A stretch of 64,000 nt of DNA, from IMG/VR virus record IMGVR_UViG_3300027985_000282, positions 1-64,000 of that record. One strand, 5' to 3'. The stretch comes from a virus. Positions 16,217 through 57,213 of the stretch are shown here, in pieces. The notes below the pieces were generated by a model that was not told the origin of the DNA, did no database searches, and saw nothing but the letters and a program-made list of their open reading frames with translations. How positions within the stretch are numbered: the stretch's first letter is position 1; every line of letters starts with the position of its first letter. The translations under genes and the position numbers were made by a program.

Positions 16217-16914
16217 TGGTTGTATACAGCATTAAATACGCAAACAGAGAAGGCACTGCAACTATTTATGATAGTTGGGATATAAAAGATAAGCGTTACA
16301 CAGTTAAGCTTAAAGATGTTACGTATAGAGATGTTGGCAAGTATTTATGTCTAGAAGACGGTAGTAGACAATTCGTAGAGATACTAAAGGTTATCTACGA
16401 TGTAGTCGAAACGTCTTCTGGCGTTTATTACAAGTGGGAGGTTCTTCCATGTGTTAATCCTAGACTTCCACACACAGAGTTCTGTGGAGCGTTTAAAGGT
16501 GATGAGTCTCTCGACCTTATACCTTTAACAGATGAAGAGCGTAAACTTGCAATGATTACAACTACTGTACGAGAAGAGTTAGTGGTACAAGGAAGTAGGA
16601 GGGTACAATACGTGGCAAACGAATTAGTGCAAAGGCGATTAAGAGAGAAGGGCTTCACTGAGACTGATATAGTTGATAAGGTGATAGACTTAGCTTTAGG
16701 TCGCACAAATCAACATACGTACAAAGCTCTTCAGGCTATTGGCAGGGCATCTGACTTAGAATTCTTAGATGATAAGAGTACAGTGAAGGTAGAGAATAAG
16801 CTGTTGCCACTATCTGCACAGATAGGCAGACCAAGAACATTAGCAGAGAAGCGTATGCTAGCAATAGAAAATGCAGAGATTATAGAGGAAGATCATGAGC
16901 AGTCAGAAGAGTAA
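16216..16914 (+). CDS. Small terminase subunit candidate
   Basis: A 232-residue protein that directly precedes and overlaps the large terminase gene by 20 bases, the usual place of the DNA-recognising small subunit. Residues 1-105 look like a beta domain. From about residue 115 it is helical, with a basic segment (RRVQYVANELVQRRLREKG) that could bind DNA, and it ends in an acidic tail typical of a region contacting the large subunit. No clear helix-turn-helix could be fixed. The call is from position and layout. Confidence 0.45.
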   Translation: MVVYSIKYANREGTATIYDSWDIKDKRYTVKLKDVTYRDVGKYLCLEDGSRQFVEILKVIYDVVETSSGVYYKWEVLPCVNPRLPHTEFCGAFKGDESLDLIPLTDEERKLAMITTTVREELVVQGSRRVQYVANELVQRRLREKGFTETDIVDKVIDLALGRTNQHTYKALQAIGRASDLEFLDDKSTVKVENKLLPLSAQIGRPRTLAEKRMLAIENAEIIEEDHEQSEE

Positions 16915-18571
16915 GCTAACACAGAAGCAAATAGATGTTTGGTTAGTAAAGATTGCTAGTGCATCTGTATATACTAAGTTGTCAGTGCTAAAGTCTATGC
17001 CAGAAGAGATGACTGAGCATCTAATCAATGAACTTGATAAGCATATAGCGTTTTACGCTGCTGTATGTCATAGCGATGTAGGACTTGAAATACCTCCTCA
17101 TCACAGAGAAGCGTACTCTATATTCGAATCAGATGCTAAGCAAATAGGTCAAGTATGGTGGAGGGGCGGAGGTAAAACAACTTGCAAGCGTATATTTATC
17201 ATGCATCAGATATGCAACCTCAAGCAAGAGTGTATAATCACTATACAGGAAACAGAGAAGCAATCTAAAACAGACATGATAACTATCAAGAACAACTTCG
17301 AGAACAATGCTATTATTAGACATATATACGGAGACTTGAAAGGCGATTCAATGTGGGGAGTAGAAGGTATGATTTTTGCCAATGGAGTTATACTGCTTCC
17401 TGGTGCTACTGGTAAGAGTATTCGTGGTACTAACATAGATAACTTCAGACCTACACTTATACTACTAGATGACTTTGCCTCAGAGAAGAACTCTAAAACT
17501 CCTGAGAGTAGAGAGGAGCTTAATCATTGGCTTGTTAGGGTAATACAGCCACTAGGTGTTCCTAATGTTACTAGATTCATTTACATGGGTACGATTATTA
17601 CTCAGTTAGACTTTCTTGCTACTCAGAACCCTAGAGCTGTAGATGAGAATGGTAGCCCAACAGCAGCAGCACTTAATAGTATATTCCGACCTGAAGTTGG
17701 TGGAGCGTATACAGAGTTTAAGGTATCTGCTATTCCTTACGACGGTACAACTGATGATATATTTCCTACATGGGAAGCTGTGTTCCCTCTTGATGCTATT
17801 AAGTCAGCTTACAATGTAGCATTGAGCATGAATGACTTAGCTGGTTTCTATCAAGAGTTCTATAACATTGCAGCAGGTCAAGCAAAGCCTCTATTTAACG
17901 CTAATATGCTTAAAGAGCTTAAGGTAAGCTATCACAGATTCTTGCAAATCCATTATGTTCAAGACCCTACTGGTCGTAAAGTTCCTATTAGGTTAGGACA
18001 AGGTGTAGATCCTAATCGTAGAGTAGCAGTTGGCAGTGATGACTTTATAGTGTTTACAACTGGAAGACTGCCTGATGGCACTTATGTAGCTGTAGACATT
18101 TATGCAGATAGGATACCGATTGAAGAGCATGCTTCTAAAGTAATAGAGAAGATTATAGAGTATAAGCCGTATGTATGCACAATAGAGACTCAAGCATATC
18201 AGTTATCACTAGGTACACAAGTACAAGAGTTAGCGAGGAAGAACAAACTGCACACATGGATACAGTTCTATGAGAAAAACGTGTCCAAAGCTAACTCATA
18301 CAATGAGACAGATGGACTTGCTACAGTGATTAACGCAGATAAGATGATGTATGTGACTGGTTGTCCTAATATAGAGAAGTTCAAGACTCAGTTAGGAATA
18401 TATACAGCAGGAGCTAAGCGACAGCATGACGACACAATTGACGGTGCGTATCTATCAATTAAAGAACTTCCACCACCGATAATGTATGATGTAGACAAAG
18501 CTATACGTGATGCACGTAATAGTTTAGGTGACAATAAGAAGAAGAAGCGTAAAACTTTTATGGGAGTATAG
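16895..18571 (+). CDS. terL: Terminase large subunit
   Basis: A 558-residue packaging motor. The ATPase part has a Walker A-type WRGGGKTT at residues 89-96 and a Walker B LILLDDF at 188-194. The RNase H-like nuclease half starts near residue 350; VAVGSDDFIVFTTGRLPDG leads into VAVDIYADR, followed by VCTIETQ and, near the end, QHDDTIDGAYL, giving the acidic residues expected to hold the two metals. It docks on the portal, translocates DNA into the prohead and cuts concatemers. It is followed without a gap by the portal gene. Confidence 0.9.
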   Translation: MSSQKSKLTQKQIDVWLVKIASASVYTKLSVLKSMPEEMTEHLINELDKHIAFYAAVCHSDVGLEIPPHHREAYSIFESDAKQIGQVWWRGGGKTTCKRIFIMHQICNLKQECIITIQETEKQSKTDMITIKNNFENNAIIRHIYGDLKGDSMWGVEGMIFANGVILLPGATGKSIRGTNIDNFRPTLILLDDFASEKNSKTPESREELNHWLVRVIQPLGVPNVTRFIYMGTIITQLDFLATQNPRAVDENGSPTAAALNSIFRPEVGGAYTEFKVSAIPYDGTTDDIFPTWEAVFPLDAIKSAYNVALSMNDLAGFYQEFYNIAAGQAKPLFNANMLKELKVSYHRFLQIHYVQDPTGRKVPIRLGQGVDPNRRVAVGSDDFIVFTTGRLPDGTYVAVDIYADRIPIEEHASKVIEKIIEYKPYVCTIETQAYQLSLGTQVQELARKNKLHTWIQFYEKNVSKANSYNETDGLATVINADKMMYVTGCPNIEKFKTQLGIYTAGAKRQHDDTIDGAYLSIKELPPPIMYDVDKAIRDARNSLGDNKKKKRKTFMGV

Positions 18572-20581
18572 ATGCAGCAAGTTAATGCTCTGGCAATGCA
18601 GTTATATAGACTAGTTACACAAGCATATACCACAGAGAGAAATGAATGGCTTGTTCGTTGTGATAATAACAGCAAGTTCGTTCTTGGAGGTGATGCACAG
18701 TGGACTAAGGAAGAGCTTGAGAGTCTAAATAATCGTGGTGGATATACTATTACGCTTGATAAGACTCGTAAAGCTATAAATGGTATGGTTGGCATGTTAA
18801 CAGCTAATCAGCCTAGCTTGAAATGCACAGCAGTAAATGGTAATACATATGCTGCTAAGGTTAGAAGTATAATGTTAGATCATGTGCTTAGAGAAAATAA
18901 GTTTCTCTCATTTATACGTACATTGATGTATAGAGGATATGTTGATAATATAGCATATGCATTTGTAGATCATCACGGCAATAACAAGATTACGTTATCT
19001 CAGTTAAAATACGACGAGGTAATCGTAGACCCTAGTAGTAGAGATAACATGTTTACAGATGCTGCATGGATAGCAATTGTGAAATTCATGCCAATAGAAC
19101 AAGTAAAAGCATTGTATGGATTGACTGATGTATCAACAGATATACCAGCATCGTATAGCACAGAATACTACAGTGCGATACATGTTAATCCTTTATTCGA
19201 TGCAACTAGGCAGTTTGTTAAAGTATTTGAGATATACAAGAGAAGGTTAGTCAATACTGATGGAGAGATTAAGGCTATAGTAGAGAAGTCTACTCTTGTA
19301 GGGTATAATTATGCAACGCAAGAGATATTGCCAAGTACAATTACAACATATCCAATTATACCAATATATAGTGATGTTACAGTTGTTAATCCACTTAAAG
19401 TGAGTGACCTAGAGCTAATGAGAGATACGCAGCGGTATGCAAATAAGATGAATAACATAACAATTATGAATGCTCAAGCTACTGGCAGTCCTAAGACGTT
19501 TGTACGTTTACAGGATATACCTGGTGAAGACTTGGAGCAGTTCAATAACGATTATAGCATACCTGGAGCAGTACTTGGTCTCGGACCAAATGCCGAAGCC
19601 CCTGTTGTTGTCAGTTCTCAACCTCTTAACAATGCTTATTTCTCGCTGTATAGAGATGCTGTGCAACATCTTACACAGACATATAGCGGGTTAGGATTGG
19701 ACGGAAATAACACTGATAGTGCTAGTCATCAACCTTCTTTGTTTGAGAAGCGAGAAGTGCTAATGGACTCTATGAAGATCACATCTGGGATATATGAAGC
19801 AGCTCTATCTCAGATGGCTATTCACATACTAGAACTAGTAACTACGTATATGGACGATAATACAGTCGTTCGCTTATCAGGTGGTGTAGAACTTATGCAG
19901 CAGATACAGGAAGATATTAACAGTGGGTTAGATGTAGAGAATCCTGATGCTCTTAATTCTTTCATTGAGAAAATGAAGAAGGAGAACAAGTCTGCCACTG
20001 TGATAGATGACATGATCTTTGAAGCTACTGATAGGCGTAAACTAGCAGATGCCATATTCGACATGTTACATAAGATAGATGATATTACTTACGACTTAGA
20101 TGTTGCAGAGTCTTCATATGCACCATCGTATGCTGCAACGAAATGGAATTCAGCACTAGTTCTTGCAGAGCATAATGCTATAGACCCTGAGACTCTATTA
20201 GAGTTATCACCTCTTGATGACAAAGAAAAGATACTTAGGAGAATAAGCGTTAATAGACAACTGTCTGCACAGATAGACGAATTGACTAAACAGTTAGAAG
20301 CAGCACAAGAGACTATTGGTAAAATGGCTAGTGAAGCAGAGATGTTGCGTAGAAAGAATGTTGATGTATCTAATCAGGCTAGACATGATGCTCAGTTCAA
20401 AGCTGGACAACTTGCTAATCAGTATGCTAAGAAGTCTATGCAGATGGATAGAGCAGAAGCCAGTCGTAAGTTAGAATACATGATAAAGGAGTTTATGCTT
20501 ACACTGTCACAGTCTGACAAAGATGCACTAGCTCAGTTGACTTACGATGATATTAAAAGCAGTATAAATCTGAACGAATGA
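18572..20581 (+). CDS. Portal protein
   Basis: A 669-residue protein encoded directly after the large terminase, as is usual for phage portals. It has an alpha-rich wing and clip region and a stem-like helical stretch, and the last 120 residues form a long coiled coil (QIDELTKQLEAAQETIGKMA) comparable with the barrel region of large portals. The middle (residues 190-420) contains IPIYSDVTVVNPLKVSDLEL and a GLGLDG segment like those found in T7/P22-size portals. It should form the 12-subunit ring through which DNA enters and leaves. Identification is from size, position and pattern. Confidence 0.75.
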   Translation: MQQVNALAMQLYRLVTQAYTTERNEWLVRCDNNSKFVLGGDAQWTKEELESLNNRGGYTITLDKTRKAINGMVGMLTANQPSLKCTAVNGNTYAAKVRSIMLDHVLRENKFLSFIRTLMYRGYVDNIAYAFVDHHGNNKITLSQLKYDEVIVDPSSRDNMFTDAAWIAIVKFMPIEQVKALYGLTDVSTDIPASYSTEYYSAIHVNPLFDATRQFVKVFEIYKRRLVNTDGEIKAIVEKSTLVGYNYATQEILPSTITTYPIIPIYSDVTVVNPLKVSDLELMRDTQRYANKMNNITIMNAQATGSPKTFVRLQDIPGEDLEQFNNDYSIPGAVLGLGPNAEAPVVVSSQPLNNAYFSLYRDAVQHLTQTYSGLGLDGNNTDSASHQPSLFEKREVLMDSMKITSGIYEAALSQMAIHILELVTTYMDDNTVVRLSGGVELMQQIQEDINSGLDVENPDALNSFIEKMKKENKSATVIDDMIFEATDRRKLADAIFDMLHKIDDITYDLDVAESSYAPSYAATKWNSALVLAEHNAIDPETLLELSPLDDKEKILRRISVNRQLSAQIDELTKQLEAAQETIGKMASEAEMLRRKNVDVSNQARHDAQFKAGQLANQYAKKSMQMDRAEASRKLEYMIKEFMLTLSQSDKDALAQLTYDDIKSSINLNE

Positions 20582-25904: not shown

Positions 25905-26345
25905 ATGGAGTTTACATCAAATCAATATACTGCTATTGGTGCTGGAGGATTATTAGGACTTGCATCATCTATAACAGGCAACAATGCTGTAGCAGCTAAT
26001 AATAAAAGTATAGATGCTGCAATAAAAGAGCTTAGAGCTAGAGCAGCTGAGCTAGCTAAAGAGCGTAAACAGATAATAAGCACAGGAAGCAATGCTGCAA
26101 ACAACTTCTTATTGTCATATATGACAATCAAAGATCCTAATAAGGCTCAGGGCTTAACATCCGTGTACAGTCAGAATGTTAATAACACTTCTAATTTAAT
26201 GAGAAGCAACAGTTCTGAACAATCCGCTGTGTCATCTAGCATAGCACAGTTGAAGGCTCAAAAACAACACGAAAAAGAGTGGTGGGAGACTGGTCTCGAT
26301 ATGTTAGGAGGTGCAGCATCTACATTACCACTACTACTAATATAG
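25905..26345 (+). CDS. Small internal virion protein, possible channel component
   Basis: A 146-residue protein with AGGAGG upstream. It has a hydrophobic Gly/Ala-rich N-terminal segment (about residues 10-32), a central charged helical region (AIKELRARAAELAKERKQI) and a short hydrophobic C-terminus. This resembles in layout T7 gp14 and P22 gp7, ejected proteins that span the outer membrane. It starts the run of probable ejection proteins up to 39544. Confidence 0.5.
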   Translation: MEFTSNQYTAIGAGGLLGLASSITGNNAVAANNKSIDAAIKELRARAAELAKERKQIISTGSNAANNFLLSYMTIKDPNKAQGLTSVYSQNVNNTSNLMRSNSSEQSAVSSSIAQLKAQKQHEKEWWETGLDMLGGAASTLPLLLI

Positions 26346-26354
26346 GAGTACACA

Positions 26355-27026
26355 ATGGAGCAAGTACAACAACCTAATTACTTTATGCTGTTTATGCAGA
26401 ACCTGCAAGACGCTACAAAGCTTAAGTATGACAAAGAGCAGAGAGTTGAAGATAGAGCATTGCAAAAGACGCAACTAGAAGAAACAGCAAGGCATAACAA
26501 GTCTGTAGAGGAGCTGAATAAAACTCAGATGGATAAAGAGTTTTTAATGCGATCAATGGATTATGCACTTAATCAGGAGAATGCACGCTTTAACCAGTAT
26601 ATAAACGTTGAGAAGCTTAAAGCAGAGCAAGACTATAATAAGAGCATGATAGGCATAAAGAACAGGGAACTAGGATTAGCTAGCGACCAGTTCAAATACA
26701 ATAAGTATATCACAGGTAAAGAGATGGAGACTGTTGCTTTAGGTGCTTATGCTGCTAACATTGATGCATCTAATAAGATAAGGCAAGATCATCCATACAC
26801 TGAATTCGGTACATATGACTTTGAAATAAACGGCAAGACACTTACGTTTAATCTACCTAAGCTCGGACAGTCGTCTAGAATATTCACAGTAGGAAACGAA
26901 TCGTACAAGAGTGATATTAGCAATAAGCTAAGCAGGCAACCGTACCCAAGACCATACAACTACCCTTGGGGACTAGCATTTCAACAGTATCCTACATATA
27001 ATCCTTACGATGTTGGAGGTAAGTAA
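26355..27026 (+). CDS. Coiled-coil internal virion protein candidate
   Basis: A 223-residue protein, strongly helical and charged from residues 20 to 110 (KEQRVEDRALQKTQLEETAR and so on), with a Tyr/Pro-rich C-terminus. There is no membrane segment. It lies between a channel-like small protein and a 404-residue protein with Gly/Ala-rich hydrophobic stretches, in an arrangement like T7 gp14-gp15-gp16. It may form part of a periplasmic conduit or bind the portal inside the head. Confidence 0.5.
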   Translation: MEQVQQPNYFMLFMQNLQDATKLKYDKEQRVEDRALQKTQLEETARHNKSVEELNKTQMDKEFLMRSMDYALNQENARFNQYINVEKLKAEQDYNKSMIGIKNRELGLASDQFKYNKYITGKEMETVALGAYAANIDASNKIRQDHPYTEFGTYDFEINGKTLTFNLPKLGQSSRIFTVGNESYKSDISNKLSRQPYPRPYNYPWGLAFQQYPTYNPYDVGGK

Positions 27027-28240
27027 TGAAAGCAAAGATACTCAGCACAATAGCTGGAGTATTCGCATCTGGAGCAATAAGTGCGTTTAATAGAGATATG
27101 GAGAGATTCATTGCTAAGCATCTAGTATCTGGCGACACAGAAACAGAGAAGAGAAGCAAGGCTAAGTCTGTTATGAATATCGCTGGAGCTGCTGCTAATC
27201 TAGCAGTGGAAATCCCTTCTGCTATTGGAGGTACGGCATTAGCATTCGGTGCTCCTGGTATAGGGACTGCAATAGGTGTACCGTTAACCGCTTACGGATA
27301 TTATGGCTCTGGAAAGAGCCTTATATCTATATATGACAGCATAGCTACATTTGGAGAGTTGCCTGTCAATGACAAACCACTACAGCAATCGAAGTCGTAT
27401 ACAGAACTAGACATTGACACAGCTAAGACTATAATAACAACTAAAGAGGATAAGATGGCTAAAGAAGGTTCTGGACTAGCAGCGTTTGAAGACGCTGGAG
27501 GAGATGACGCTCCAGAAAAGAAAGAGCAGAAAAACAATGATGTTATGAGTGTTGTTGAGCAGATATTATCTAAATCTGACGAGATAAAGTCTGCATTACT
27601 TGAGACTCTCAAGACTCCTGATGTAGACAAAGCAAGAGTTGACACACTGTATAATAGTTGGAAACAAACAGCATCTGTAGGAGCATCATCTGCGTTAGTA
27701 GGTTCTATACTGATGCTCAGAAAAGATGGTAATGCTGGTGCTGAAATGTATAAGACTGGCATGCTACTGAATGAGCAAGCTTTACAAAAAGCATCAGCTA
27801 TAATGTCTGCATTCTCTTCTAAAGATAGAAACGCTCAACTGTTCTTACGTAAAGAGTTAGGGGATTTAGAGGCTATGGGTGTTGATTCGCAACATGTTGC
27901 TAATGTTGCTAACTCATTGCAAACTATTATGCATCAAACAAACAGCTCTATAGCTCAGATAATTAAAGATCGTACAAGTGACGATCCTATTAAAAGAGCT
28001 AAAGGATTGTTATCTATATACAGTGCACAAGCAAATGTATCTTTGCAAGCATTGAAGAATGCGTATCAAATGGCTAAGAATAACATTATAAGTAAAGCAG
28101 AGATTAAAGAGTATCAAGTAGCGTATAAGGAAGCTTTAGACAGCTATAATAAAGTACAAGCTGTTTTCCGCCCTACATTGCTAAAGGCATTCGAGTCTGG
28201 AGTGTTAAGTCCTGAAGATATTGAAGAGCTTACACCTTAA
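27026..28240 (+). CDS. Internal virion protein candidate with membrane-active region
   Basis: A 404-residue protein whose start overlaps the previous stop (TAATG) with GGAGG upstream. Residues about 45-95 are a Gly/Ala-rich hydrophobic region that could insert in a membrane. Residues 150-404 are largely helical and coiled. It has no known enzymatic motif. Its place directly before the giant polymerase-like gene suggests it is ejected with it. Confidence 0.5.
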   Translation: MKAKILSTIAGVFASGAISAFNRDMERFIAKHLVSGDTETEKRSKAKSVMNIAGAAANLAVEIPSAIGGTALAFGAPGIGTAIGVPLTAYGYYGSGKSLISIYDSIATFGELPVNDKPLQQSKSYTELDIDTAKTIITTKEDKMAKEGSGLAAFEDAGGDDAPEKKEQKNNDVMSVVEQILSKSDEIKSALLETLKTPDVDKARVDTLYNSWKQTASVGASSALVGSILMLRKDGNAGAEMYKTGMLLNEQALQKASAIMSAFSSKDRNAQLFLRKELGDLEAMGVDSQHVANVANSLQTIMHQTNSSIAQIIKDRTSDDPIKRAKGLLSIYSAQANVSLQALKNAYQMAKNNIISKAEIKEYQVAYKEALDSYNKVQAVFRPTLLKAFESGVLSPEDIEELTP

Positions 28241-28260
28241 AATACATAATAGGAGATTTG

Positions 28261-31200
28261 ATGAATCCTAGTGAGTTTATATTAGAGCATAAAGATAATA
28301 TCATGAAGCTCTACAATACTGATCTTGAAGACATGCGTAAAAGCATGTCTTTGTATCAAAGCAACGATTACAACGATGTGCGGTTAACTCACCTAGTTAA
28401 TCAGTTCGATGTAATAGATGGCGAGCTGGAAGGTGCATTATCTAAGCATATAGATAGTAATAGCGACAAAGTTGCATTTATGGTAGCTTCTAAATATGAA
28501 GCCTTCCTAAGTGATGCAAAGAAAGCATCTAAGAAGGTTAAACGTGAGCGATTAAGCATTGTACAGAAGAATATAGCAGAGTTAAGTGACTATTCTCCTG
28601 ATAAGAAGGATAACTATGTAATGGCGTTACAAGCTGTAGGGTCTATCAATGAAGACTTGAGTTATGGAACGTTCGGAGTTAGCACAACTGTAGATCATCC
28701 ATTTGCTGTATCAGATAGTATAATTAGTAGGGTATTTAGTCGTGCTACTGATTTCACTATGACTGGTAATGCTTTCGCAGCGTTAGGAGCTGACCCTCTG
28801 CAAAGAGACGCAGCTATATACAATGAAGCACTTATGCAAGGTGTAATTAAGGAAAGTTCATTTGGAAGCATGTTTGAGACTACTGCGTCAATAGCATTAG
28901 GTGTCGCAATGGGAACTGCTGAACGTATAGCAGGTGGAGCATTAGTTAATAAAACACTTAAGAATCCAGCTATTAAAAACCTGTTTCCTTCTAAATACAA
29001 CAGAGCCATTCCTGTAGAACAAGCGTCGTACAGTAAATTGCAAAATGTTATCAGCTCTGTAGGAAGTATAGCAAAGAATGAGTATACTAGACAAGCTATA
29101 TACGGAGGAACGCTTGCTGCTCTGCAAGCTGTTAATGATGATGAAGGTCTTACAAAGCAACTTGGGTTGTTTAGTAGTGAAACATGGGCTGACGCTATAC
29201 AAGCTGGAGTTGCATACGCTGCTGGAACCGCAATATCTAATAAGTGGATAATGCCTGCTATTACTAAGAAAGCAGCACCATTCATTAAAAGATTTACAGA
29301 TGAGTTTGACATGGCTATACAACAAGGTGAGAAGACTGCTGCTAAAAGCGTATTAGAAAAGCTCGTTGTTAAAGCTGATGAATGGGCTAAAACAGCTACT
29401 GATAGGCAAGCTATATCATACTTAAAAGCGAATATAGACAACGTTGCATCTAAAGTTGCTACTACAGAAAACGTTTCTGGCATTATGTCTAAGTTCTTCG
29501 TATCATCATATGCTGGCAATCAGGCTAGTGCATTAAGTTGGCATAGCTTAGGAGCATTAACAGATACTGCTGTTGATTATGCATTAGATGTTGCATCCGT
29601 TAACATGTTAGAGTCTATTACGAATGGAGGATTATTTTCTCCAAGTACTATAGCTATGTTTAAATGGAAAGAAGGTGACTGGAGAAGCAACTTAGAAGGT
29701 GTTGGAATTAACATTCTGCATAGACTTAGTGGAAAAGCTTCTGCTAAAGCAGCTGGACTTGCATTCAATCTCAACATCGATAGACGCTCAGGAATAGTAG
29801 GTGAAGCCGGCACTACAGATTGGATAGCTAAAGAGGCTAAGGAAAATAACTGGGTGTACTCAGACACTGCTAAAATGTATACTCACCTATATAATCTCTT
29901 TATAGGAAATGACATGAAGAGATTAGATACGTACATCAGGAGTGTATCTCCTAATTCATCACTAAGCGAGTTTATATCAGACAAGTTAGATACTCATAAA
30001 TTAGTAATGGCTGCTGCTTTTGCTGAGTATGCTAAGACTAAGAGTAAGGTTGCTCTATCTGGGTATGAATTAAAACGAACTGAACAGTTTAACAATGTGT
30101 TTGAGTCTATAAGTAAAGTTAATATAGATAGTGCTGCATTGATAGATTCTATAGTTGATACTACTCATACTGACGTTGCAAAGATAGAGTTTAACAATGA
30201 GGATCCTATAGCGTTTGGAAGTCGTGTTGCTGATAAACTTACAGAGGATATAGCAGTTAATAAACTAGAAGGTAAAACACGTTTTGCTCTTACAGAGTCT
30301 GATAGTGATAGACTGTCTATGTCATTATCAACATTGTTACGTGGTTTCGTAGTAGATAATACTGATGAGACTCAGGCGTTTTACTCTGCTGTTATACGTG
30401 GAATAGAAAAGAACCTTATCAACAAAGCTATTAAGGCTGATTCATCTGAACAAGCAAGACCTGTATCTCTTAGTGATATTTCAGGTATAGCATTCTTGGA
30501 TATAAAGCGTACAGCTCAGTCAATACCAAGAGACGCATTCGTTGCTGAGCATATAAAGCTAAGAGAATTGTTAAATTCTGATGATATTAAAAAGACAGCA
30601 TCTATAGGAGATGTTGTGTCTAAAGAGTCTATATCAAATGCTGTAGAGATGATTACTCTGTTAAAGAACAAAGAAGTCAACGATGCTGTTAATACAGCGT
30701 TACAAAACACAAGCGTAATACCTCGTATGATGCGTATAGATTTAGATATAGTGAAAGACTTATCTGATAAGTTAAGTGCTGATACGCATAGTGTAGGCGA
30801 AATACGTACAGCAATTGTTAGCAATCCATCACGTATACGTGAGCTTGTTAATGCTGCAGTTGATACGTATGTAAAGCGTATAGAGAATCTGACAGTGCAG
30901 ATAGAAAAGGGAAATAAACCGTCTACAAGTGAATCGTCTGAATTAGCTGCTACAGCTATCAAGCTAATACACATCACACAAAATGCTGGAATTCCTGATG
31001 TAGATGTGTTGAAGCGAGTTGATAATGCACTGCAGAATAATATGGTACGTACAGCAATAGAAGGTATTATGGATAGTAATACAATGGGCAATGCGTTAGC
31101 CTCGTATGCAGACGTTGCAAAGTATATAAGTACAGCTGGATATAGCAATGTAATTGTTGACCTTATAGGATTGGCAGGAAGTTACAATATAGCATCTAAT

Positions 31201-34200
31201 AGTGTTAATGCTCTTATACTAAATACTGTTAGAGGATATATTAGTAGTGCAGTACATTCTGAATTTAGTGGCAAGTTTGGTGCTTTGCGTACTAATTGGT
31301 TAGCAGATTTTGCTATGAATTCATCAGACTCAGTAGGATTCTTACGTGAATTTACATACGACGGTAAGCAGACTAGTATAGACGGTGTTGAAGTTAGCAA
31401 CGCTCCTTTGATGTTTAACGACATAGTATATAAAGTACTTAATGGTGATGCTCTTACAGATGATGAAGCTAAGTTTGCGTCTGCATACGTAGAAGCGAAG
31501 CGAGGTATTGCAGAAATGTTCAAGCTAGGAACAGTAGACAAACAAGATGAATCTATTAAGGCTGGAAACGTCGAACTATCTTTGCAGGGCAATGGTTTTG
31601 CTATAAATGTTAAGAAGTATACGCAGATAGATCCTACTGATACTCCAGCGTTAAGAGCTAAGATTCTTGAGGGATTTGCTCCTATACGTGAAGACGTTTC
31701 AAATGTTGATAACCGTATGGTATCAGAGAAGTCCATGTTTGAACTTAATGGCTCTAGTTACACAGTAGACGATGTTATACGTAGGCTAGAGAAGAGTACG
31801 AATAGTGATATAAGTATTAAAGATGCTGTTAGACTAGTATACCAGAATGGAGTAGACGTTGAATCTCGTGTGAAAGCATTGATAACTAGTCTACTGCCTA
31901 AAAATATAAGCATAACTAGTGATGTTAAGTATGGAATGTCTGATAATGATATAACTGTATTATCTAAGCAGCTTATAAAACAAGCATCATTTCAGAACGT
32001 TGCGTCTCTTACACTAGATAGAATGCAAGACGGTAAGCTCAAGAATCTAAGCATATCGTATGAGAATCAAGATACATCATTTGACAACTATGAAGGCATG
32101 CGTACAATCAACATTGGTATAGACGATGAACTGAAACAAAGAATCTCATCAGCTACAACAGCTACAGAGTTTAATACTCTTACAACAGAGCTTGCAAAGA
32201 TAGGTATTCACAATGTAGGAGCCAAAGGAAATACTACTGACCCTATATTTGTATACATAGATGAAACTAGACCAGACGGTTCAATACCTGCAAGAGTTAT
32301 AAGAAAAGCAGCTAAACAGTTGTCTGATAGAATGGTGAATATGTCGTTAGACCCAGAAGATTCTAAACTTCTTTCTAAACTATCTACAGCTCTATCAAAA
32401 GACGGGTTAGATTATGCTGCAATGATTAAAGAGTTATCTGCTTATGCCACTGATAGACTAGCAATGCTTAAAGAGCTTGGGCTGACTAAAGTTAAGGTAG
32501 CGTCTAAAAACAACGAAACTGTGGAGTTGTTTAAGAAGAACAGTGCAACTGGTAAGAGTCCTATTGAGTCATATGCTGATAGTGTTACAGAGATATATCT
32601 CAAATATGCTGAAACTATTCCAGAAGAGGTTAAGAGTTTATTAGATGAAGTGCAGAGAATAACAGACCCCAAAGAGACTGAGACACTTATGGCGTTAAAG
32701 GAACGGATCAACTCAAAAGCTCAATCTCTTTTTTCTATTCTAAAAGTAGATCAGCTAACAGAAACTGACAAAGCTCAGTTAGATGCGTATGTGCAAAGTT
32801 ACGAAGCTGTTAACGTATATAGCAACCTTAAAGACGCTAAAGATGTTTACACCAACGAAGCTGTTAAGTCTATAGCTAATCTTGAGAAGTATATAAGTAT
32901 GTTATCAGGGCTGCGTAGCGACGATGACAGAGCTAAGGTACTGCTTACTTTCCTTGGTTATGGCAAAGCTGCATTGCATGAGACTAAACTACAAAAGCGT
33001 AGCTCATATCTTACCAACTCAAGATGGTTAAAGAGTGATGGTGACTACATCTCTAAAGATGTAGAGAATATGTTCCTAGATATAGCTCGTGATACAAAGA
33101 TTTATATAACTGCTACAGGTGGTGATGGAGCAATGGCTATTCCAAAGAGTATTCTAGGCAAGCTTTCGATAGCAACAGACATGACAATAGGTAAGCTAGT
33201 AAGCAATTCAGAGTTTGGAGGAATGAAGATCAATGCTATAACGTCAGAACGTCTTGCTAAAAGCGGCATCTTATACGGTACTAATATAGACGCTTCTAAG
33301 AGCGTTTTTATAGATATGTCTGTATGGAAGACTGTATATCCAGAGCTATTAAGCAGCATACAGTCAGTAGATGGCAATGATTATATATATGAGTTATCTG
33401 GATTCAATGTCTGGAACTCTGATAAAGCTATGCTTCTAGCGTCTATGACACTGCACTCTCCTACCAATACATTCTCTAAAGAGATGTCTAACATAGGTAC
33501 AGCTATAGCAAATAGCGGTTCATTAGCATCTACTATTTTTAGTGGTGCTTACATTGCAAGATATAAATCAAAAAATGAGTCGATTTCAGTGCCAGAAGGC
33601 TCGGATTTGCTCGATGTTTATAAGTGGCATAGAAAAGTTGCATCTAATATAAATATCGCTCAAAACAACCTCTCTGCAATGTCTAAAGTTTCAGAATTTA
33701 AAGGAAATCCTGATGTGCAAGTATTGAGTAAAGATCATGAATTGAATAAAAGTATTTTACCTAAAACTTCAATTCCTACTTACATTCTAGCCACAATGCT
33801 TGCGAAAGTTTACAACAATGCTGAATTGCCCAACGAACAACGAATACAAGCTAAAACGCTCGCTAAATCGCTATCGGAAACATTTGATTCTCAACAATTT
33901 GAACAATCAAAACTTAACAATGATGTACTATCAGCACTTAAGGTACTTAGTACAGGCAAGGACGCATTTATACAGTCATACACTGTAGGTGGAGAAACAG
34001 TATACATGGTTAACATGGTTAGATATCCAAGTGAGAGAGCTGGACAGAACTTCTCAGCATTGATAGTAGGAGTTCACAATGCTGGCTATGATACAGAGAT
34101 AAGTGACTTTCATTACAGAAAAGTACATGGAGGCGATTACGATGGTGATGCTATACAGATCATAGGACTTAGCACTAGCAACGTAAGAGAAGGAATGATT

Positions 34201-36387
34201 GATAGTAAGTTAATAGGTTCTCAGTCTGTAGGAAATGAAGTGATTATTAAGCAACTACAAGACGCTTACTATGATGCAGTTGCCACATTGCAAGCAAACG
34301 CTACGTTTATGACTAAGGGTAGTATGTTTAACAACTTCTTACGTAGTCCTGGAACCGCAGTAGCTCCTAATGACTTTATGTCTTTTTACAGATGGGGCGT
34401 TAAGAGACTTGCAGTATTCAATGCTGGCGATAGCAACAAGTCTGCTAATACCAGAAACAACTTCTTTGACTCTGTAAAGAAGGCATTGCATATAGATCCT
34501 CTAATAATAGAGAACAAACCTCTAATAACTAATATTAGTAACTATTCGTTTGGTCATCATGGTTCTAACAGAAGAGTGGTTGTGTTCTCAGGCTCCTCAA
34601 ACCCTGTAAACGATGTAGATAAGCTTACACTGCATTATACAGTGAGTGATGTAATAGCTCTGCCTGCTGGCAAAGAGTATGTAGATAAGAATGGTAGAAC
34701 TTACACAGCGTTTAGTGGGTTAGACGCAGAGGGAGCAACTGTTACGCACATAGTGATGTTTGATAACGAAGAAGGACAAGCGTTGTCGTCAGGTGCTATC
34801 GTTAAGCGACAAATAGCATACAATGATGAGATGTATGCGTCTACAAGAAACAGTAGATTTGAAGCACTTGATGCATACTTAAAAGGATATATCGAAAGAG
34901 TAGACAATGGAACTGAAAGTCCTGCAGACAATCTATTGAGATACTCAACAGAGCAACAGATCATAGAGACTGCAAACGCTATTGGTGTTAACAACATGAA
35001 GAATAACACGCTTAGTTATGTAGCACAGATAATATCAGACCCTTCTAAGTATAAAGACTTTGCAGCTCTTATGTCTACTGCATTAGAAATGCCTTCTGCT
35101 CTAGCAGTTAAGCACGGTGGAAACTTCAACGGTATACCGTATAGAGTTTCATTCGATGCTGGTCTCAACGACAAGATACAAGAGTTTTACTCTGGTAGTA
35201 TAGGTAAGTACGCATACGATGCTGCTGTGAAGAGTACAATGTATGATATACGTAATGGAGTTGCTGGCATATCTGACAATGAGTTTAATAGCCTGAAGAA
35301 GCTTATAGGAAATGCAACAGCTACTGATGATGAGGTCGTTGCTGGTATCAGAGCCGCACAGAAAGCTTATCAACTTGAATTGCACTCAGAGACAACAATG
35401 CCTATGATTGTACGTATAAATGCATATAAAATAGCTAAAGCATATAATGCATCACAGGACAATCTTAACAACCACATATCTAAAGTCATTAGCTATGCTG
35501 GAGATGATCTTAAAGCGTTTATACGTAGCAATATGCCAAGTGACGAGATAGATCCTTTCATGTCTGTAAGAAGCATTAAAGGTAGTGATATTGATCCAGA
35601 GTCTGCAACTCCTGATAAGATTAGAGTTAAGAATCCTGTCGTATCATTACTATCATGGCACAGCATGTTAGAGACTTTCGATGGTATGTTATCACCTGTA
35701 TTCTCTAGTCATAGCAAGCAGAAGTTTCTGCGTATGTTACATAAAAGCACTGCTCGTTTCTATGGTGTAGGAATTACTGAGGACACATTCTATGCAGAGA
35801 TAGCTAGAGCTGCAAACTCTATTGGCGGTAGATACGCTAATTACTCAGCAGGAGATGTTAAGAGTATCCTTAATAAGCTTGGTCTGCATGTCGCAGATGA
35901 GAGAATCAATAAGATCACTGAAGACTTCATAGCTGAACAGATACTTAATGAAAGTACCAAAGGATTTGAGGCTGACATGGCTAAAGAGCTTATAGACCGT
36001 ATAAACACAGAAAAGCTTGATGCTGCTATTGTTCTTAAACAAGGTACTCATACACTGCAATTAAATAAGCTACTTAATCTGTTTAGCAAGTATACAAAGC
36101 CTAGTATCAACGACTCTAATGAAGCTGACAAGCGTCAAATACTAGATGTTTTCCAAGCACTAGTTACAAGAATGACTCATCATCAGCAAGTTGCTTCTCA
36201 GTTATATGCAAATGGGTTAACAGATATGACTACTAGGTATCTTGATATGAATAGCATTGATATACTTGGGTTAGAGTCTATAGAGACTGAACGTATGCAA
36301 CATAAGCACTTAATGAAGAATGCATCTGTTGAGATACAGCGTAAAATAGCTGATACTCAGTACAAGAATTTAACATGTAAGGAGTAA
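28261..36387 (+). CDS. Giant virion protein with double-psi beta-barrel RNA polymerase motif
   Basis: A 2708-residue protein with AGGAG at 28251-28255 before the ATG (an in-frame TTG at 28258 is rejected). The key feature is GGDYDGDAIQI, with DYDGD at residues 1959-1963. DxDGD is the metal-binding catalytic loop of multi-subunit RNA polymerase beta' (DFDGD), YonO-type and crAss-like single-chain polymerases, and RdRP. RYPSE at 1921-1925 matches the conserved R-x-P upstream of this loop. Lysine-containing strands at about 1600-1700 (TGGDGAMAIPKSILGK) could belong to the other barrel, but this is not certain. The N-terminal 500 residues have Ala/Gly-rich hydrophobic segments (ASIALGVAMG and others), compatible with membrane passage. 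Between 500 and 1500 it is mainly helical. It sits among probable ejection proteins, so it is probably packaged and injected to transcribe early genes. Residues about 1761-1887 use codons unlike the rest. It could be catalytically inactive; only activity tests would tell. Confidence 0.62.
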   Translation: MNPSEFILEHKDNIMKLYNTDLEDMRKSMSLYQSNDYNDVRLTHLVNQFDVIDGELEGALSKHIDSNSDKVAFMVASKYEAFLSDAKKASKKVKRERLSIVQKNIAELSDYSPDKKDNYVMALQAVGSINEDLSYGTFGVSTTVDHPFAVSDSIISRVFSRATDFTMTGNAFAALGADPLQRDAAIYNEALMQGVIKESSFGSMFETTASIALGVAMGTAERIAGGALVNKTLKNPAIKNLFPSKYNRAIPVEQASYSKLQNVISSVGSIAKNEYTRQAIYGGTLAALQAVNDDEGLTKQLGLFSSETWADAIQAGVAYAAGTAISNKWIMPAITKKAAPFIKRFTDEFDMAIQQGEKTAAKSVLEKLVVKADEWAKTATDRQAISYLKANIDNVASKVATTENVSGIMSKFFVSSYAGNQASALSWHSLGALTDTAVDYALDVASVNMLESITNGGLFSPSTIAMFKWKEGDWRSNLEGVGINILHRLSGKASAKAAGLAFNLNIDRRSGIVGEAGTTDWIAKEAKENNWVYSDTAKMYTHLYNLFIGNDMKRLDTYIRSVSPNSSLSEFISDKLDTHKLVMAAAFAEYAKTKSKVALSGYELKRTEQFNNVFESISKVNIDSAALIDSIVDTTHTDVAKIEFNNEDPIAFGSRVADKLTEDIAVNKLEGKTRFALTESDSDRLSMSLSTLLRGFVVDNTDETQAFYSAVIRGIEKNLINKAIKADSSEQARPVSLSDISGIAFLDIKRTAQSIPRDAFVAEHIKLRELLNSDDIKKTASIGDVVSKESISNAVEMITLLKNKEVNDAVNTALQNTSVIPRMMRIDLDIVKDLSDKLSADTHSVGEIRTAIVSNPSRIRELVNAAVDTYVKRIENLTVQIEKGNKPSTSESSELAATAIKLIHITQNAGIPDVDVLKRVDNALQNNMVRTAIEGIMDSNTMGNALASYADVAKYISTAGYSNVIVDLIGLAGSYNIASNSVNALILNTVRGYISSAVHSEFSGKFGALRTNWLADFAMNSSDSVGFLREFTYDGKQTSIDGVEVSNAPLMFNDIVYKVLNGDALTDDEAKFASAYVEAKRGIAEMFKLGTVDKQDESIKAGNVELSLQGNGFAINVKKYTQIDPTDTPALRAKILEGFAPIREDVSNVDNRMVSEKSMFELNGSSYTVDDVIRRLEKSTNSDISIKDAVRLVYQNGVDVESRVKALITSLLPKNISITSDVKYGMSDNDITVLSKQLIKQASFQNVASLTLDRMQDGKLKNLSISYENQDTSFDNYEGMRTINIGIDDELKQRISSATTATEFNTLTTELAKIGIHNVGAKGNTTDPIFVYIDETRPDGSIPARVIRKAAKQLSDRMVNMSLDPEDSKLLSKLSTALSKDGLDYAAMIKELSAYATDRLAMLKELGLTKVKVASKNNETVELFKKNSATGKSPIESYADSVTEIYLKYAETIPEEVKSLLDEVQRITDPKETETLMALKERINSKAQSLFSILKVDQLTETDKAQLDAYVQSYEAVNVYSNLKDAKDVYTNEAVKSIANLEKYISMLSGLRSDDDRAKVLLTFLGYGKAALHETKLQKRSSYLTNSRWLKSDGDYISKDVENMFLDIARDTKIYITATGGDGAMAIPKSILGKLSIATDMTIGKLVSNSEFGGMKINAITSERLAKSGILYGTNIDASKSVFIDMSVWKTVYPELLSSIQSVDGNDYIYELSGFNVWNSDKAMLLASMTLHSPTNTFSKEMSNIGTAIANSGSLASTIFSGAYIARYKSKNESISVPEGSDLLDVYKWHRKVASNINIAQNNLSAMSKVSEFKGNPDVQVLSKDHELNKSILPKTSIPTYILATMLAKVYNNAELPNEQRIQAKTLAKSLSETFDSQQFEQSKLNNDVLSALKVLSTGKDAFIQSYTVGGETVYMVNMVRYPSERAGQNFSALIVGVHNAGYDTEISDFHYRKVHGGDYDGDAIQIIGLSTSNVREGMIDSKLIGSQSVGNEVIIKQLQDAYYDAVATLQANATFMTKGSMFNNFLRSPGTAVAPNDFMSFYRWGVKRLAVFNAGDSNKSANTRNNFFDSVKKALHIDPLIIENKPLITNISNYSFGHHGSNRRVVVFSGSSNPVNDVDKLTLHYTVSDVIALPAGKEYVDKNGRTYTAFSGLDAEGATVTHIVMFDNEEGQALSSGAIVKRQIAYNDEMYASTRNSRFEALDAYLKGYIERVDNGTESPADNLLRYSTEQQIIETANAIGVNNMKNNTLSYVAQIISDPSKYKDFAALMSTALEMPSALAVKHGGNFNGIPYRVSFDAGLNDKIQEFYSGSIGKYAYDAAVKSTMYDIRNGVAGISDNEFNSLKKLIGNATATDDEVVAGIRAAQKAYQLELHSETTMPMIVRINAYKIAKAYNASQDNLNNHISKVISYAGDDLKAFIRSNMPSDEIDPFMSVRSIKGSDIDPESATPDKIRVKNPVVSLLSWHSMLETFDGMLSPVFSSHSKQKFLRMLHKSTARFYGVGITEDTFYAEIARAANSIGGRYANYSAGDVKSILNKLGLHVADERINKITEDFIAEQILNESTKGFEADMAKELIDRINTEKLDAAIVLKQGTHTLQLNKLLNLFSKYTKPSINDSNEADKRQILDVFQALVTRMTHHQQVASQLYANGLTDMTTRYLDMNSIDILGLESIETERMQHKHLMKNASVEIQRKIADTQYKNLTCKE

Positions 36388-36388: not shown

Positions 36389-39300
36389 ATGAAACACTGC
36401 AGTAGGTTGAATACTGCTCTTAAACTAACACGTAGAACCTCTGCAAGTCCAACAGACGAACTGACAGGCTCTACAACTACATCGAGACAACTTGAAATGC
36501 TGTCTCATGACTTTATGAGGATATACGGAGCGGCAAGATCAAATGGGCGTGATATGCTTTCTATGGCAAATGGAATTGCAAATGGCATGCGTAGCGTGAA
36601 TGATCTTATAAGCAATGTTACTGGTGGAAAGTTTAAGAGGTTAAGCGATGTTGTTGACACAAATAATAAGCATCTGATAGAAGATGTAAGTGCTAATATT
36701 AGACGTTATATGGAGCAGCTTGTACTTCATGAGAAGAATAACAAAGCTATATACAATGTACAGATGTACAACGTTACAGCTCAGATTATGAGAGGTTATG
36801 CACTTGGTCATAAACTAGCGATGTTCAGCACTAAAGCGTTCTCTGGTCAATGGATACCGTACCTCAACAAGTTCTACGACGCACTTATAGTGGATAAGGC
36901 GTATATATTTAGACAGAATCCAATAGTTGACAGGCTTAGAGCATTTACGAATACATCAACAAACTCTGTAGAAGGTAGAACAACTCAGCTACGTTACGAC
37001 TTTGAAAAGATATTCATGACAAAGCAATACGGCAAAGATGGTCTTAGCAGCGATACGGTTGCTACGCTGTTGAAGTATTATGATGCTGACAAGCGTACAG
37101 AAATTGATACTGTTATCAAGGCAATGATTGAGGATGGTGACATAAAGAAAGATAAAGACACGTCTGTAGATGCTAGAGTGTTATCTGTAAAAACAGTAAT
37201 GGAGGGTATCTTCAATCAATGGAAGATGTTCAACTACGGTACAACAACTCCTAAAACTAGCGAATACTTCTCTAACTGGCAGAAGTATAGAGGTTCATAT
37301 GTTCATCATATTATAGCATCTGGAGTTGAATACGTTAACTCTGTAAGGTCTGCAATAGACAATGGAATAACTAGCGGCTCATTCCTTGAACGACTATCAG
37401 ATAGAGAGCGTGAGGTTATTAAGTTATTTGGATTCTATGCAGTGCATGGTAATAAAGAGCAAGCTATTAAACTGTCTAGAACGTTAGGTGGTATACAGAT
37501 AGACGAAGAACATAGCTTCCATGTTAAGTCTGACTACGTTCCGTATTTAGAAGATGACCAAATAGCTAATCTATTCACAGTTAAGTCGCAAGGTGTGCTA
37601 ACATGGGCAAAGATGCTATCAGAGCGTAGAGGTGATCGCAGTGGTAAAGAAGTAGATGTTATTACAGCATTCTCTAACGATATAGAGTCGTATAGAGGTA
37701 TGATGACTCAAGCAAACGATAGGCTATTTGCTAGGCAATTACAGGATTATATGACCACTCAATCGTATGTTGAATGGGCTATTCATGATAGGTTTACTGA
37801 TGAGCAACTAAAGATGCATGCACAGTACATGTCAAAAGATTTAGTCGTAAGTTCATCCTCTGTGAACAAGTCTAGACACGTTGAGTTGACTAGACAGTTA
37901 ACCCTTATGAGTTTAGGACTTGTAGGCACGTCACTGTTAATGGTATCAGGTGTTAAGAACTTAGTGCTTGGAGCACTGTCACTTACAAAGAACATCACAT
38001 CTAAAGATGCCTTTGATAGACTTACTGGCGACAGGTCATTAAATGTATTAGAGTCTAGTAAACTAGCAATAGGTAATACAATGCTTGGAGATGTTGTTAA
38101 GAAGAGTGTTGAAATATCTAAGGTTCAATACGTTGGTAGAAGTGATATACATATCATAGATACCGCTCAGACGACTCCTATGAATAAAACTATACAGTTC
38201 GTCATGGATAAAGTAGTTGATAGGTCAAAGCGATACGGTGTGTTTATGCCATTCGTTGACTTTATGACAGACAGTATGAGAGCCGCATTCGACGGTAAGG
38301 GGTTCTTGTCTGCATCTCTTACTGCTGTAGGCAGCGAACGTTTATTAAGATCATGGGGAGATATAGAGTTCGCTAACTTCGTATCATGGAAGTTCCAGAT
38401 GGATAAAGCAGTGCTAGATAATAAAGATACTTCACCTAAAGATCGTAAAGCTATTATGGACAGATGGAAGGATGACAATGCTATTCGTAAAACAGTATCT
38501 GCTATGTATGAAGATGCTACACCACAGCTATACGAGAAGAACAATAAGTATTTCGGTGATTTCTCGCAAGATGTGAAGCCTATATGGGTATCAAAGCAGT
38601 TGCGTGAAGGCGATACAATGATGAAGGTCGCACTAGGAGGTATCGCTACTGCATGGTATATGTTTAGACAGGCTGTACAGTACGATCTTAACAATACACT
38701 TGTAGGAGTCGGTAGAATGATAAGTACTGTGCTAGATTTTAAACATGCAGATCGTGCCACTCCTGTAATGATGCCATTATTTGCAATGATGCTTATGGGA
38801 ATGGACTTCTATGATCTCTTTAGCTCTGAAGAAGATGAGGAAGGAAAGTCTGTTGGCTGGGGATTCTTGCAAGCGGCTAACTCGTTAGGAGACATAGCGA
38901 CTATAGGGAAAGGCATAACTCTAGGACTTGCAGCATTTATGGACTTCCCTTTACAGGAACAGGCTAGAGAAAGAGCAATTGCTCAGCTTGCTAGATACGG
39001 AGGTGGTGTATTAGCTGGCAATGCATTAGAGTCTATATATGCTGATATTCACAATGACTTAGCTCCGTTCACAAATATGCTTGCAAGTATAAAGAACTAC
39101 GGTTCTGGATGGACTACGTTTGCTAGTCAATTTGTAGCGTCTAGCATAGATTATGACCCTAGAAAGATGAAGCAAGCAATGCGAGATATATACAATATTA
39201 AGTTGCCTTTAGCAGATACAGTGCTTGGTGGAGGTAATGATTTGTTACGTACAGTATTAGATGCTATGTATGCAAGTAAGTCTATGACAACAGATAAAAA

Positions 39301-39544
39301 TGCTGATAGGCAAGTAGACGCTATTAGTAATTTCATGCAGGATATTGCTGGTTCTGGATTCTTAGAGGTTAGATCAGTGTATAATGGTAATTACATGTCA
39401 GGAGCTGCATCAAATGCTAGGCTAGCAGCAAATGACATACGCAATGGTTACTCTATTAGCTATGATGTTGACTTCGCAGATGATCTCGATGCATTATCTA
39501 AACTGTTAGAAGACAGTATCAATGGAGACGAGTATGGCGACTAA
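36389..39544 (+). CDS. Large internal (ejected) virion protein
   Basis: A 1051-residue protein starting one base after the giant gene's stop codon, with AAGGAG upstream. It is mainly helical. A hydrophobic patch at about residues 510-535 (SLGLVGTSLLMVSGVKNLVLGA) and others at about 790-830 could touch membranes. Size, helical character, gene order and close coupling match the large ejection proteins of podoviruses (T7 gp16-like in role, not sequence). No lytic transglycosylase motif was seen. Confidence 0.55.
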   Translation: MKHCSRLNTALKLTRRTSASPTDELTGSTTTSRQLEMLSHDFMRIYGAARSNGRDMLSMANGIANGMRSVNDLISNVTGGKFKRLSDVVDTNNKHLIEDVSANIRRYMEQLVLHEKNNKAIYNVQMYNVTAQIMRGYALGHKLAMFSTKAFSGQWIPYLNKFYDALIVDKAYIFRQNPIVDRLRAFTNTSTNSVEGRTTQLRYDFEKIFMTKQYGKDGLSSDTVATLLKYYDADKRTEIDTVIKAMIEDGDIKKDKDTSVDARVLSVKTVMEGIFNQWKMFNYGTTTPKTSEYFSNWQKYRGSYVHHIIASGVEYVNSVRSAIDNGITSGSFLERLSDREREVIKLFGFYAVHGNKEQAIKLSRTLGGIQIDEEHSFHVKSDYVPYLEDDQIANLFTVKSQGVLTWAKMLSERRGDRSGKEVDVITAFSNDIESYRGMMTQANDRLFARQLQDYMTTQSYVEWAIHDRFTDEQLKMHAQYMSKDLVVSSSSVNKSRHVELTRQLTLMSLGLVGTSLLMVSGVKNLVLGALSLTKNITSKDAFDRLTGDRSLNVLESSKLAIGNTMLGDVVKKSVEISKVQYVGRSDIHIIDTAQTTPMNKTIQFVMDKVVDRSKRYGVFMPFVDFMTDSMRAAFDGKGFLSASLTAVGSERLLRSWGDIEFANFVSWKFQMDKAVLDNKDTSPKDRKAIMDRWKDDNAIRKTVSAMYEDATPQLYEKNNKYFGDFSQDVKPIWVSKQLREGDTMMKVALGGIATAWYMFRQAVQYDLNNTLVGVGRMISTVLDFKHADRATPVMMPLFAMMLMGMDFYDLFSSEEDEEGKSVGWGFLQAANSLGDIATIGKGITLGLAAFMDFPLQEQARERAIAQLARYGGGVLAGNALESIYADIHNDLAPFTNMLASIKNYGSGWTTFASQFVASSIDYDPRKMKQAMRDIYNIKLPLADTVLGGGNDLLRTVLDAMYASKSMTTDKNADRQVDAISNFMQDIAGSGFLEVRSVYNGNYMSGAASNARLAANDIRNGYSISYDVDFADDLDALSKLLEDSINGDEYGD

Positions 39545-40694: not shown

Positions 40695-40705
40695 TAGGAG
40701 ACACT

Positions 40706-41152: not shown

Positions 41153-41208
41153 TCCAGCATATACACATAAGCCATACTCCTGCACTCGATGCAATGAGTA
41201 AAATAAAC

Positions 41209-41232: not shown

Positions 41233-41251
41233 TGTGCTGTGTATACAACTG

Positions 41252-51607: not shown

Positions 51608-51818
51608 TTCTATTCCCTACTATTGTGAACATAATGTTGTGCTCTTTGTTAAATGTGTCATCACACTGCACCTTATGACATTGTATGTTATGTCTCTTTG
51701 TGTAGAATGCACACTTTGAACATCCAGCATACTTTATCACTTTAACTCTTATACTGTCTATTACGTGTATATCTCCTTGAGTAAATGACTGTATTTTGTA
51801 CAGTTCGTCTCTTGTCAT
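51450..51818 (-). CDS. Cysteine-rich small protein overlapping the nuclease gene
   Basis: A 122-residue protein. The start is set at the ATG at 51818 (GGAG upstream), which overlaps the stop of the VWA/peptidase gene by ATGA. Residues 29-45 (AGCSKCAFYTKRHNIQCHKVQC-type pattern) give C-x2-C and C-x4-C pairs suited to zinc. The last 50 codons overlap the start of the nuclease gene in another frame and are polar and of low complexity. Confidence 0.45.
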   Translation of the reverse strand: MTRDELYKIQSFTQGDIHVIDSIRVKVIKYAGCSKCAFYTKRHNIQCHKVQCDDTFNKEHNIMFTIVGNRNATNQRHTITDTDTRSNDGNDQSIQQRESSVHTEQPNDWLTEAMGRVKSRRR

Positions 51819-54148: not shown

Positions 54149-54789
54149 GATCCCTCCAATACCCACATTGCTATCTTCTTCTTGTCATCTTCTAGGTGTA
54201 TATACGAGTTTCTCAATGCTTCAATGTCTGATTGACTCAGTGGTAACTGTATTCTTTGTATCAGCCTTGAATGCGAATACTCTACATAGAGTTTCGTTCT
54301 ATTCATGTTCATATACCACTTACAGTTTTTCCCTATTCCTATCATCAACACTGATGCATTGGATACTCTTCCTACTGGTGCTTGCACAAATACTTTGTCA
54401 GATGTTCTGAAGTATGTATACTCTACTGATACATTGAACTTAGGATATACTACTGTAAATGTTGTATCAGTATTGCTTTCCCATTCTCCTTGCATATAGA
54501 AGCCTAGCGACTGTACAGGTTCATCTGTCCATGTTGATTCCCTGATAGCTGCCTGACTCATCTCATTAGCATATTCTTTCATCCATGTAGATACATCACT
54601 TGCTATCTTTGTTAACTCCATCTGTACATCGCTAAGTCTTTCCTTCATGACTTGCATAAACTTTACTCTTGTTTTTGCTGCTATGAATAGCCTGGAGTAT
54701 TGCTTTGTAAATGCATTTGATGCGGCTTCCCATGCTTCATTCTGCATAGCCTCACGTGATTCGTGAGTTCCATACATGCTTTTAAACAT
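54139..54789 (-). CDS. Hypothetical early protein
   Basis: A 216-residue protein with AAGGAG before the ATG. Helical to about residue 100 (with ATKQYSRLFIAAKTRV-like stretch) and beta-rich afterwards (NTDTTFTVVYPKFNVSVEY). It has no recognised motif. It overlaps the MoxR gene by ten bases and so may belong to the same functional set. Confidence 0.5.
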   Translation of the reverse strand: MFKSMYGTHESREAMQNEAWEAASNAFTKQYSRLFIAAKTRVKFMQVMKERLSDVQMELTKIASDVSTWMKEYANEMSQAAIRESTWTDEPVQSLGFYMQGEWESNTDTTFTVVYPKFNVSVEYTYFRTSDKVFVQAPVGRVSNASVLMIGIGKNCKWYMNMNRTKLYVEYSHSRLIQRIQLPLSQSDIEALRNSYIHLEDDKKKIAMWVLEGSCV

Positions 54790-57211: not shown

Positions 57212-57213
57212 TG

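Follow-up and report, generated by a model that had tools for sequence, protein, structure and literature searches.

Does the protein of 2708 residues encoded in the late region of this viral DNA work as an RNA polymerase (RNAP) that travels in the virion, and if so, in what kind of phage? The window analysed here is 64 kb of a 66,049-bp IMG/VR record. To our knowledge, virion RNAPs are known from few lineages, with T7-like enzymes in N4 and two-barrel enzymes in crAss-like, P23-45-like and jumbo phages. The giant ORF starts with an ATG at 28261, and AGGAG at 28251–28255 is a good ribosome-binding site. The original prediction was based on GGDYDGDAIQI at residues 1957–1967 with RYPSE 38 residues upstream, and both elements were found at these places when they were read again from the translation of 28261–36387. 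The elements of the giant ORF are as follows.

28261..36387, plus strand: giant ORF, candidate ejected virion two-barrel RNA polymerase, 2708 aa, open throughout
33658..34230, plus strand: proposed DPBB-A, the catalytic beta'-type barrel, residues 1800–1990
33946–34170, plus strand: profile-supported part of DPBB-A, residues 1896–1970
34021..34035, plus strand: RYPSE, residues 1921–1925, the R-x-P element of DPBB-A
34129..34161, plus strand: GGDYDGDAIQI, residues 1957–1967, with D1959/D1961/D1963 as the proposed catalytic Mg2+ ligands

The distance from R1921 to D1959 is 38 residues, the motif region covers 34021–34149 of the DNA, and the R-x-P, the loop Gly and the complete set of three catalytic Asp are preserved. 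The fixed-spacing motif R-x-P-x33-G-x-D[YF]DGD appeared in 0 of 20000 shuffles of the 2708-aa protein, and D[YF]DGD alone in 83 of 20000. When the window was shuffled 100 times, the DNA form of the motif was never matched. Among 1795 ORFs of at least 100 codons, drawn from the window together with some 45 other phage loci, the motif was unique to the giant ORF, and no other ORF with D-x-DGD was found in the genome. Searches of the giant protein against Pfam, PHROGs and PDB sequences gave no family at a meaningful score, and no relatives were found by phage tblastn or in the scans of viral and genome contigs.

The similarity to RNAPs is not confined to the motif. With a profile built from ten candidate single-chain RNAPs, the giant protein was matched with a probability of 70.5% (E 3.9e-5) over 72 columns (residues 1896–1970). 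With the same profile, the controls (shuffled and reversed sequences, the N4 vRNAP and other parts of the giant protein) reached at most 0.3%; sequences that carry this motif by chance reached 1.5–6.3%. The families in this profile had been gathered with the motif and are not independent of it. The independent profile was built only from the literature (phi14:2 gp66, crAss001 gp50, P23-45 gp64, P23-45 gp96 and YonO), and here the giant ORF ranked first of the 1795 ORFs with E 0.0052, the best unrelated ORF having E 3.1; an overlapping copy of the giant ORF in locus L001 was matched as well. When a 24-sequence profile including E. coli beta' was used, the giant ORF reached E 1.2e-4 and the next ORF 2.1. 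Local shuffles that kept R, P, G and DYDGD reached the observed scores in 0/150, 0/150 and 3/150 cases. The DPBB-A similarity spans 50–72 columns, with modest scores and good controls.

DxDGD-type loops are also present in EF-hand, dockerin and thrombospondin repeats. The DYDGD could accordingly be an unrelated acidic loop, calcium-binding or other, at a coincidental spacing from the R-x-P, and the existence of such loops in other folds and the missing match to any Pfam or PHROG polymerase family speak for it. However, an acidic loop of this kind does not account for the loss of similarity in the motif-preserving shuffles or for the far lower scores of the chance motif carriers. No EF-hand-like profile matched either, and loop positions 6, 8 and 12 (A, Q and L) are unfit for an EF-hand, so that the EF-hand itself was ruled out by the missing Pfam match and these positions, and the acidic-loop reading in general is very improbable. 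The residues D1959 to Q1966 can also be aligned with T7 motif A (DGSCSGIQ). A T7-like polymerase was ruled out, since no N4-type vRNAP similarity was found and the motifs T/DxxGR and B would stand in an implausible arrangement. The sequence comparisons support the DxDGD motif of the giant ORF as that of a two-barrel RNAP catalytic barrel, rather than one that arose by chance or binds calcium. The giant protein very probably contains a catalytic (beta'-type) barrel, whose homology to RNA polymerases can be stated with high confidence. The polymerase reading in the original prediction is strengthened by the identical R-to-D spacing, by the profile similarity to the P23-45, crAss-like, jumbo-phage and YonO enzymes, and by the negative controls.

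The R1-P3-G37-D39 spacing is identical in the giant ORF, P23-45 gp64 and P23-45 gp96. When this spacing was recast as a DNA pattern and 2.9 million viral contigs were scanned, 42 stretches were obtained. The matches include both P23-45 RNAPs, many ORFs of 500–600 aa that resemble the split beta' subunits of jumbo phages, and a handful of obvious chance matches. Seven loci (L064, L067, L070, L085, L092, L094 and L101) carry giant ORFs with R-x-P...G-x-D[YF]DGD, of 2372–4110 aa, L094 being a fragment. A crAss-type terminase was found in five of these seven records, so the pattern recovers known lineages; no crAss terminase match was found in the 32-kb records of L085 and L101. The giant ORFs of the seven loci are likely crAss-like virion RNAPs. 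Family models of Pfam and PHROGs, and searches keyed to the N4 vRNAP, miss such enzymes, which one fixed-spacing DNA pattern finds. The scan also gave a 762-aa ORF with RYP...GGDFDGD in L071 (a 74951-base contig), which is like P23-45 gp64 in size and motif. No crAss terminase was found in the L071 record, and this ORF is perhaps another single-chain non-virion two-barrel RNAP.

Structure prediction was less informative. A single-sequence AlphaFold model of residues 1491–2340 had a pLDDT of 32 and no usable fold. When residues 1800–1990 were modelled with 16 related windows, the mean pLDDT was 56 (low confidence), and in this model the loop is flanked by strands on both sides and preceded by a short helix. 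The two best matches of this model among 350,542 PDB chains were AR9 phage RNAP, with non-significant E-values of 0.064 and 0.14, and these matches are in part a product of the input alignment, which included relatives of the AR9 RNAP family. Further RNAPs were found lower in the fold matches. The double-psi fold that had been expected around residue 1960 was therefore not confidently obtained. The first barrel, which had been expected in the same chain, was not recognised with sequence profiles. By sequence, neither a DPBB-B with its lysines nor a bridge helix or trigger loop was recognised in the giant protein, and longer profiles of the crAss and giant-ORF family (−230 to +60) left it unscored. 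Two resemblances that looked attractive by eye, one upstream to the crAss/giant clamp region (TNT...GS) and one to the cellular first strand of DPBB-A, had no statistical support and were rejected. K1656/K1680 is a candidate lysine pair, a regex match only, with a spacing like that of the QDE-1 lysines.

As only one domain has statistical support, and neither a second barrel nor a trigger loop could be recognised, the giant protein might be an ejected structural or channel protein with a relic, catalytically dead DPBB-A, while a host enzyme transcribes the early genes. Its giant length, far beyond the needs of an RNAP core, would also agree with this. In contrast, a dead relic need not have retained the R-x-P element, the Gly of the loop and every one of the catalytic Asp residues, and giant size is usual in known virion RNAPs: P23-45 gp96 has 5002 aa, the N4-type vRNAP of JWAlpha has 3425 aa and the crAss-like giants have 2372–4110 aa. 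A relic barrel is thus unlikely, and an active polymerase is preferred.

The kind of phage was examined through the following genes.

16895..18571, plus strand: terminase large subunit, phrog_38 (also the JWAlpha TerL family)
18572..20581, plus strand: P22/N4-type portal protein, phrog_156, PF16510
50669..51607, minus strand: N4 gp42-type exonuclease, phrog_2139
51815..53017, minus strand: N4 gp25 homologue, metallopeptidase/VWA, phrog_1314, E 5e-52
53018..54166, minus strand: N4 gp24-type AAA ATPase, phrog_1297, E 2e-64

The order of ThyX, radical SAM, metallopeptidase/ATPase and primase genes is similar to that of crAss001. Crassvirales membership, which the gene content suggested, was ruled out by the terminase and portal families, since those of this phage are not the crAss-type phrog_6681 and phrog_6547. 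The proviso of the original prediction, that the phage might not be crAss-like, consequently holds. Its view of the gene neighbourhood needs to be extended, because it missed both the place where N4-type phages have their vRNAP and the shared gp24, gp25 and gp42 homologues. The gp24 gene adjoins gp25 here, as in Schitoviridae. Of two further Schitoviridae hallmark genes, the large terminase shares phrog_38, a broad family, with JWAlpha (E 1e-6), and the portal belongs to phrog_156 and not to N4's own phrog_1216. No similarity to the N4-type virion RNAP gp50 was found in the genome, and the family A DNA polymerase (PF00476), present in 5/5 control records, is absent. No ORF of the window matched the JWAlpha MCP, gp67 and gp69 (capsid, tail and small terminase) in a single-sequence search. 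According to the hallmark genes of Schitoviridae, which include the T7-like virion RNAP gp50 (PMC10654107), the missing N4 vRNAP, family A DNA polymerase and capsid, tail and small-terminase matches mean that this phage is not a schitovirus. No close relative was found when relatives were sought by gp25, terminase motif and polymerase. By the tests run here, the phage lies outside Crassvirales and outside Schitoviridae.

Several other genes and regions were observed in this genome. The ORF at 55095–57161 (minus strand) has an archaeo-eukaryotic-type primase domain fused to a DnaB-like helicase, and it may be the replicative enzyme because no family A DNA polymerase was found. Two adjacent radical-SAM ORFs are located at 48343–49775 (minus strand), near ThyX (44173) and a MazG ORF (43471); crAss001 also has ThyX and a radical-SAM gene. 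A 1287-aa ORF at 808–4671 (plus strand), with a GDSL-type esterase domain at 352–523, probably encodes a fibre or spike of the tail that acts as a deacetylase or esterase. The contig ends (1–60 of the window and 65676–66049 of the record) are rich in AGAGTATA/TACTCT-like repeats; the genome is perhaps almost complete, its two termini being related.

The giant gene is on the late strand, after the terminase (16895), the portal (18572) and the structural block. It ends the terminase-portal-late module, ahead of the convergent replication block and far from the early block, and the virion RNAP of the schitovirus JWAlpha occupies the same genome place. Among its 2708 residues the giant protein has a single Cys, located at the very end of the C-terminus, and about 21 would be expected from the other late ORFs. 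The JWAlpha vRNAP has 0 Cys in 3425 aa. Among the crAss-like giants, L070, L092 and L085 have none, L064 has 7 and L067 has 10, and 0 or 1 Cys was found in four of the six long giant ORFs of the scan loci. N4-type vRNAPs are without cysteine, and the authors tie this absence to passage into the host (PMC2784036, PMC3715699). The neighbours of the giant gene are similar in composition.

25905..28240, plus strand: immediately before the giant gene, three late ORFs of 146, 223 and 404 aa without Cys, whose products may be ejected together with the giant protein
36389..39544, plus strand: immediately after the giant gene, an ORF of 1051 aa with a single Cys, possibly an internal or ejected protein

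The 146-aa ORF has a very weak match (E 0.014) to the JWAlpha virion protein that adjoins the JWAlpha vRNAP, and the 1051-aa ORF has no family match. A T7-like RNAP (PF00940), present in 5/5 schitovirus records, was not found in the genome. From its position and composition the giant protein appears to be a packaged virion protein, and the phage probably delivers a transcription enzyme of its own to the cell that it infects. The original prediction had described a packaged enzyme in a phage with no other polymerase gene; the late position, the very low Cys content and the failure to find another RNAP gene agree with this inferentially.

P23-45 gp64 and YonO are two-barrel RNAPs that are not virion proteins (PMC10770324, PMC5467207), and by their example the giant protein could be a functional two-barrel RNAP made in the cell and left unpackaged. 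Its place on the late strand, next to the terminase, the portal and the structural genes and well away from the early block, argues against this, as does the near absence of Cys, which the flanking ORFs and known virion RNAPs share. Moreover, a first RNAP would still be required to start early transcription. We therefore give an unpackaged enzyme very little credence and prefer a virion polymerase.

The closest precedent is P23-45, whose gp64 and gp96 are both proven two-barrel RNAPs. Chaban et al. spotted gp96, a tape-measure-fused virion RNAP of 5002 aa, by the DFDGD that this giant virion protein contains although it has no other similarity, and they went on to prove its activity (PMC10770324). 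Like gp96, the polymerase proposed here would lie inside a giant virion protein, and gp64 has DYDGD and G-Q at +7/+8 in common with it. However, no overall sequence similarity to the P23-45 enzymes is detectable. The core is N-terminal in P23-45 but near residues 1500–2350 in the giant protein, and P23-45 infects Thermus and has a long tail and a tape-measure fusion, whereas this phage has a P22/N4-type portal. The crAss-like RNAPs (phi14:2 gp66, crAss001 gp50, L064, L067, L070, L092 and L094) are likewise giant, mostly low in Cys and encoded in the late module, with R-x-P...G-x-D-x-D-x-D and an IVG-type strand before the loop. They differ in that gp66 and gp50 carry DFDID/DFDVD and the gp66 loop is one residue further from the R-x-P, and their phages have phrog_6681/6547 instead of phrog_38/156 as terminase and portal. 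The beta' fragments of jumbo-phage (AR9/phiKZ-type) RNAPs and YonO also share the DPBB-A motif, but the jumbo-phage RNAP is split over several ORFs, and YonO is an 839-aa non-virion enzyme with DNDGD. N4 and Schitoviridae have gp24, gp25, gp42 and terminase homologues in common with this phage, and N4 gp50 resembles the giant ORF in genome position, giant size and near absence of cysteine. In contrast, N4 gp50 is a T7-like single-subunit RNAP with no sequence relation to the giant protein, and the T7-like second RNAP and family A DNA polymerase of N4 are missing here.

Taken together, the giant protein is likely a two-barrel, virion-packaged RNA polymerase, and is best read as a divergent virion RNAP of a known superfamily in a new phage lineage. 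It would be made late and packaged with the neighbouring low-cysteine proteins, and ejected through the envelope at infection. D1959, D1961 and D1963 would hold the catalytic Mg2+, with a second barrel presumed upstream in the same chain, and the two-barrel core would transcribe the first genes to enter, as has been proposed or demonstrated for N4 gp50, crAss-like gp66 and P23-45 gp96. The giant protein would thus be the functional counterpart of N4's unrelated T7-like gp50, working from the same genome place. Neither the superfamily nor the concept of packaging a two-barrel RNAP is new; new is its proposed occurrence, in one genome, in a non-crAss phage lineage with N4-like features and in the slot where N4 has an unrelated enzyme. 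The odds are roughly even that this lineage, related to N4 in gp24/gp25/gp42 and in gene order, shows unrelated polymerase folds swapped at one syntenic locus, and that the enzyme forms a branch separate from the crAss-like, jumbo and P23-45 enzymes. A two-barrel enzyme at the N4 place in a non-crAss phage would mean that either polymerase fold can be accommodated in ejected giant proteins, and would connect the infection strategies of N4 and crAss-like phages.

Possible promoters were also counted. In the early half (40500–60000), 41 sigma-70-like promoter matches were found versus 74 in shuffles (sd 8), and in the late half the deficit was smaller (65 versus 78, sd 9.5). The deficit fits a weak dependence on host promoters, and coding constraints could explain it as well. 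The intergenic regions at 61456–61598 of the window and 64415–64764 of the record, which lie before early genes, contain strong inverted repeats (DNA folding z −3.5 for 61456–61598), and they are candidate promoter or regulatory regions for a phage RNAP.
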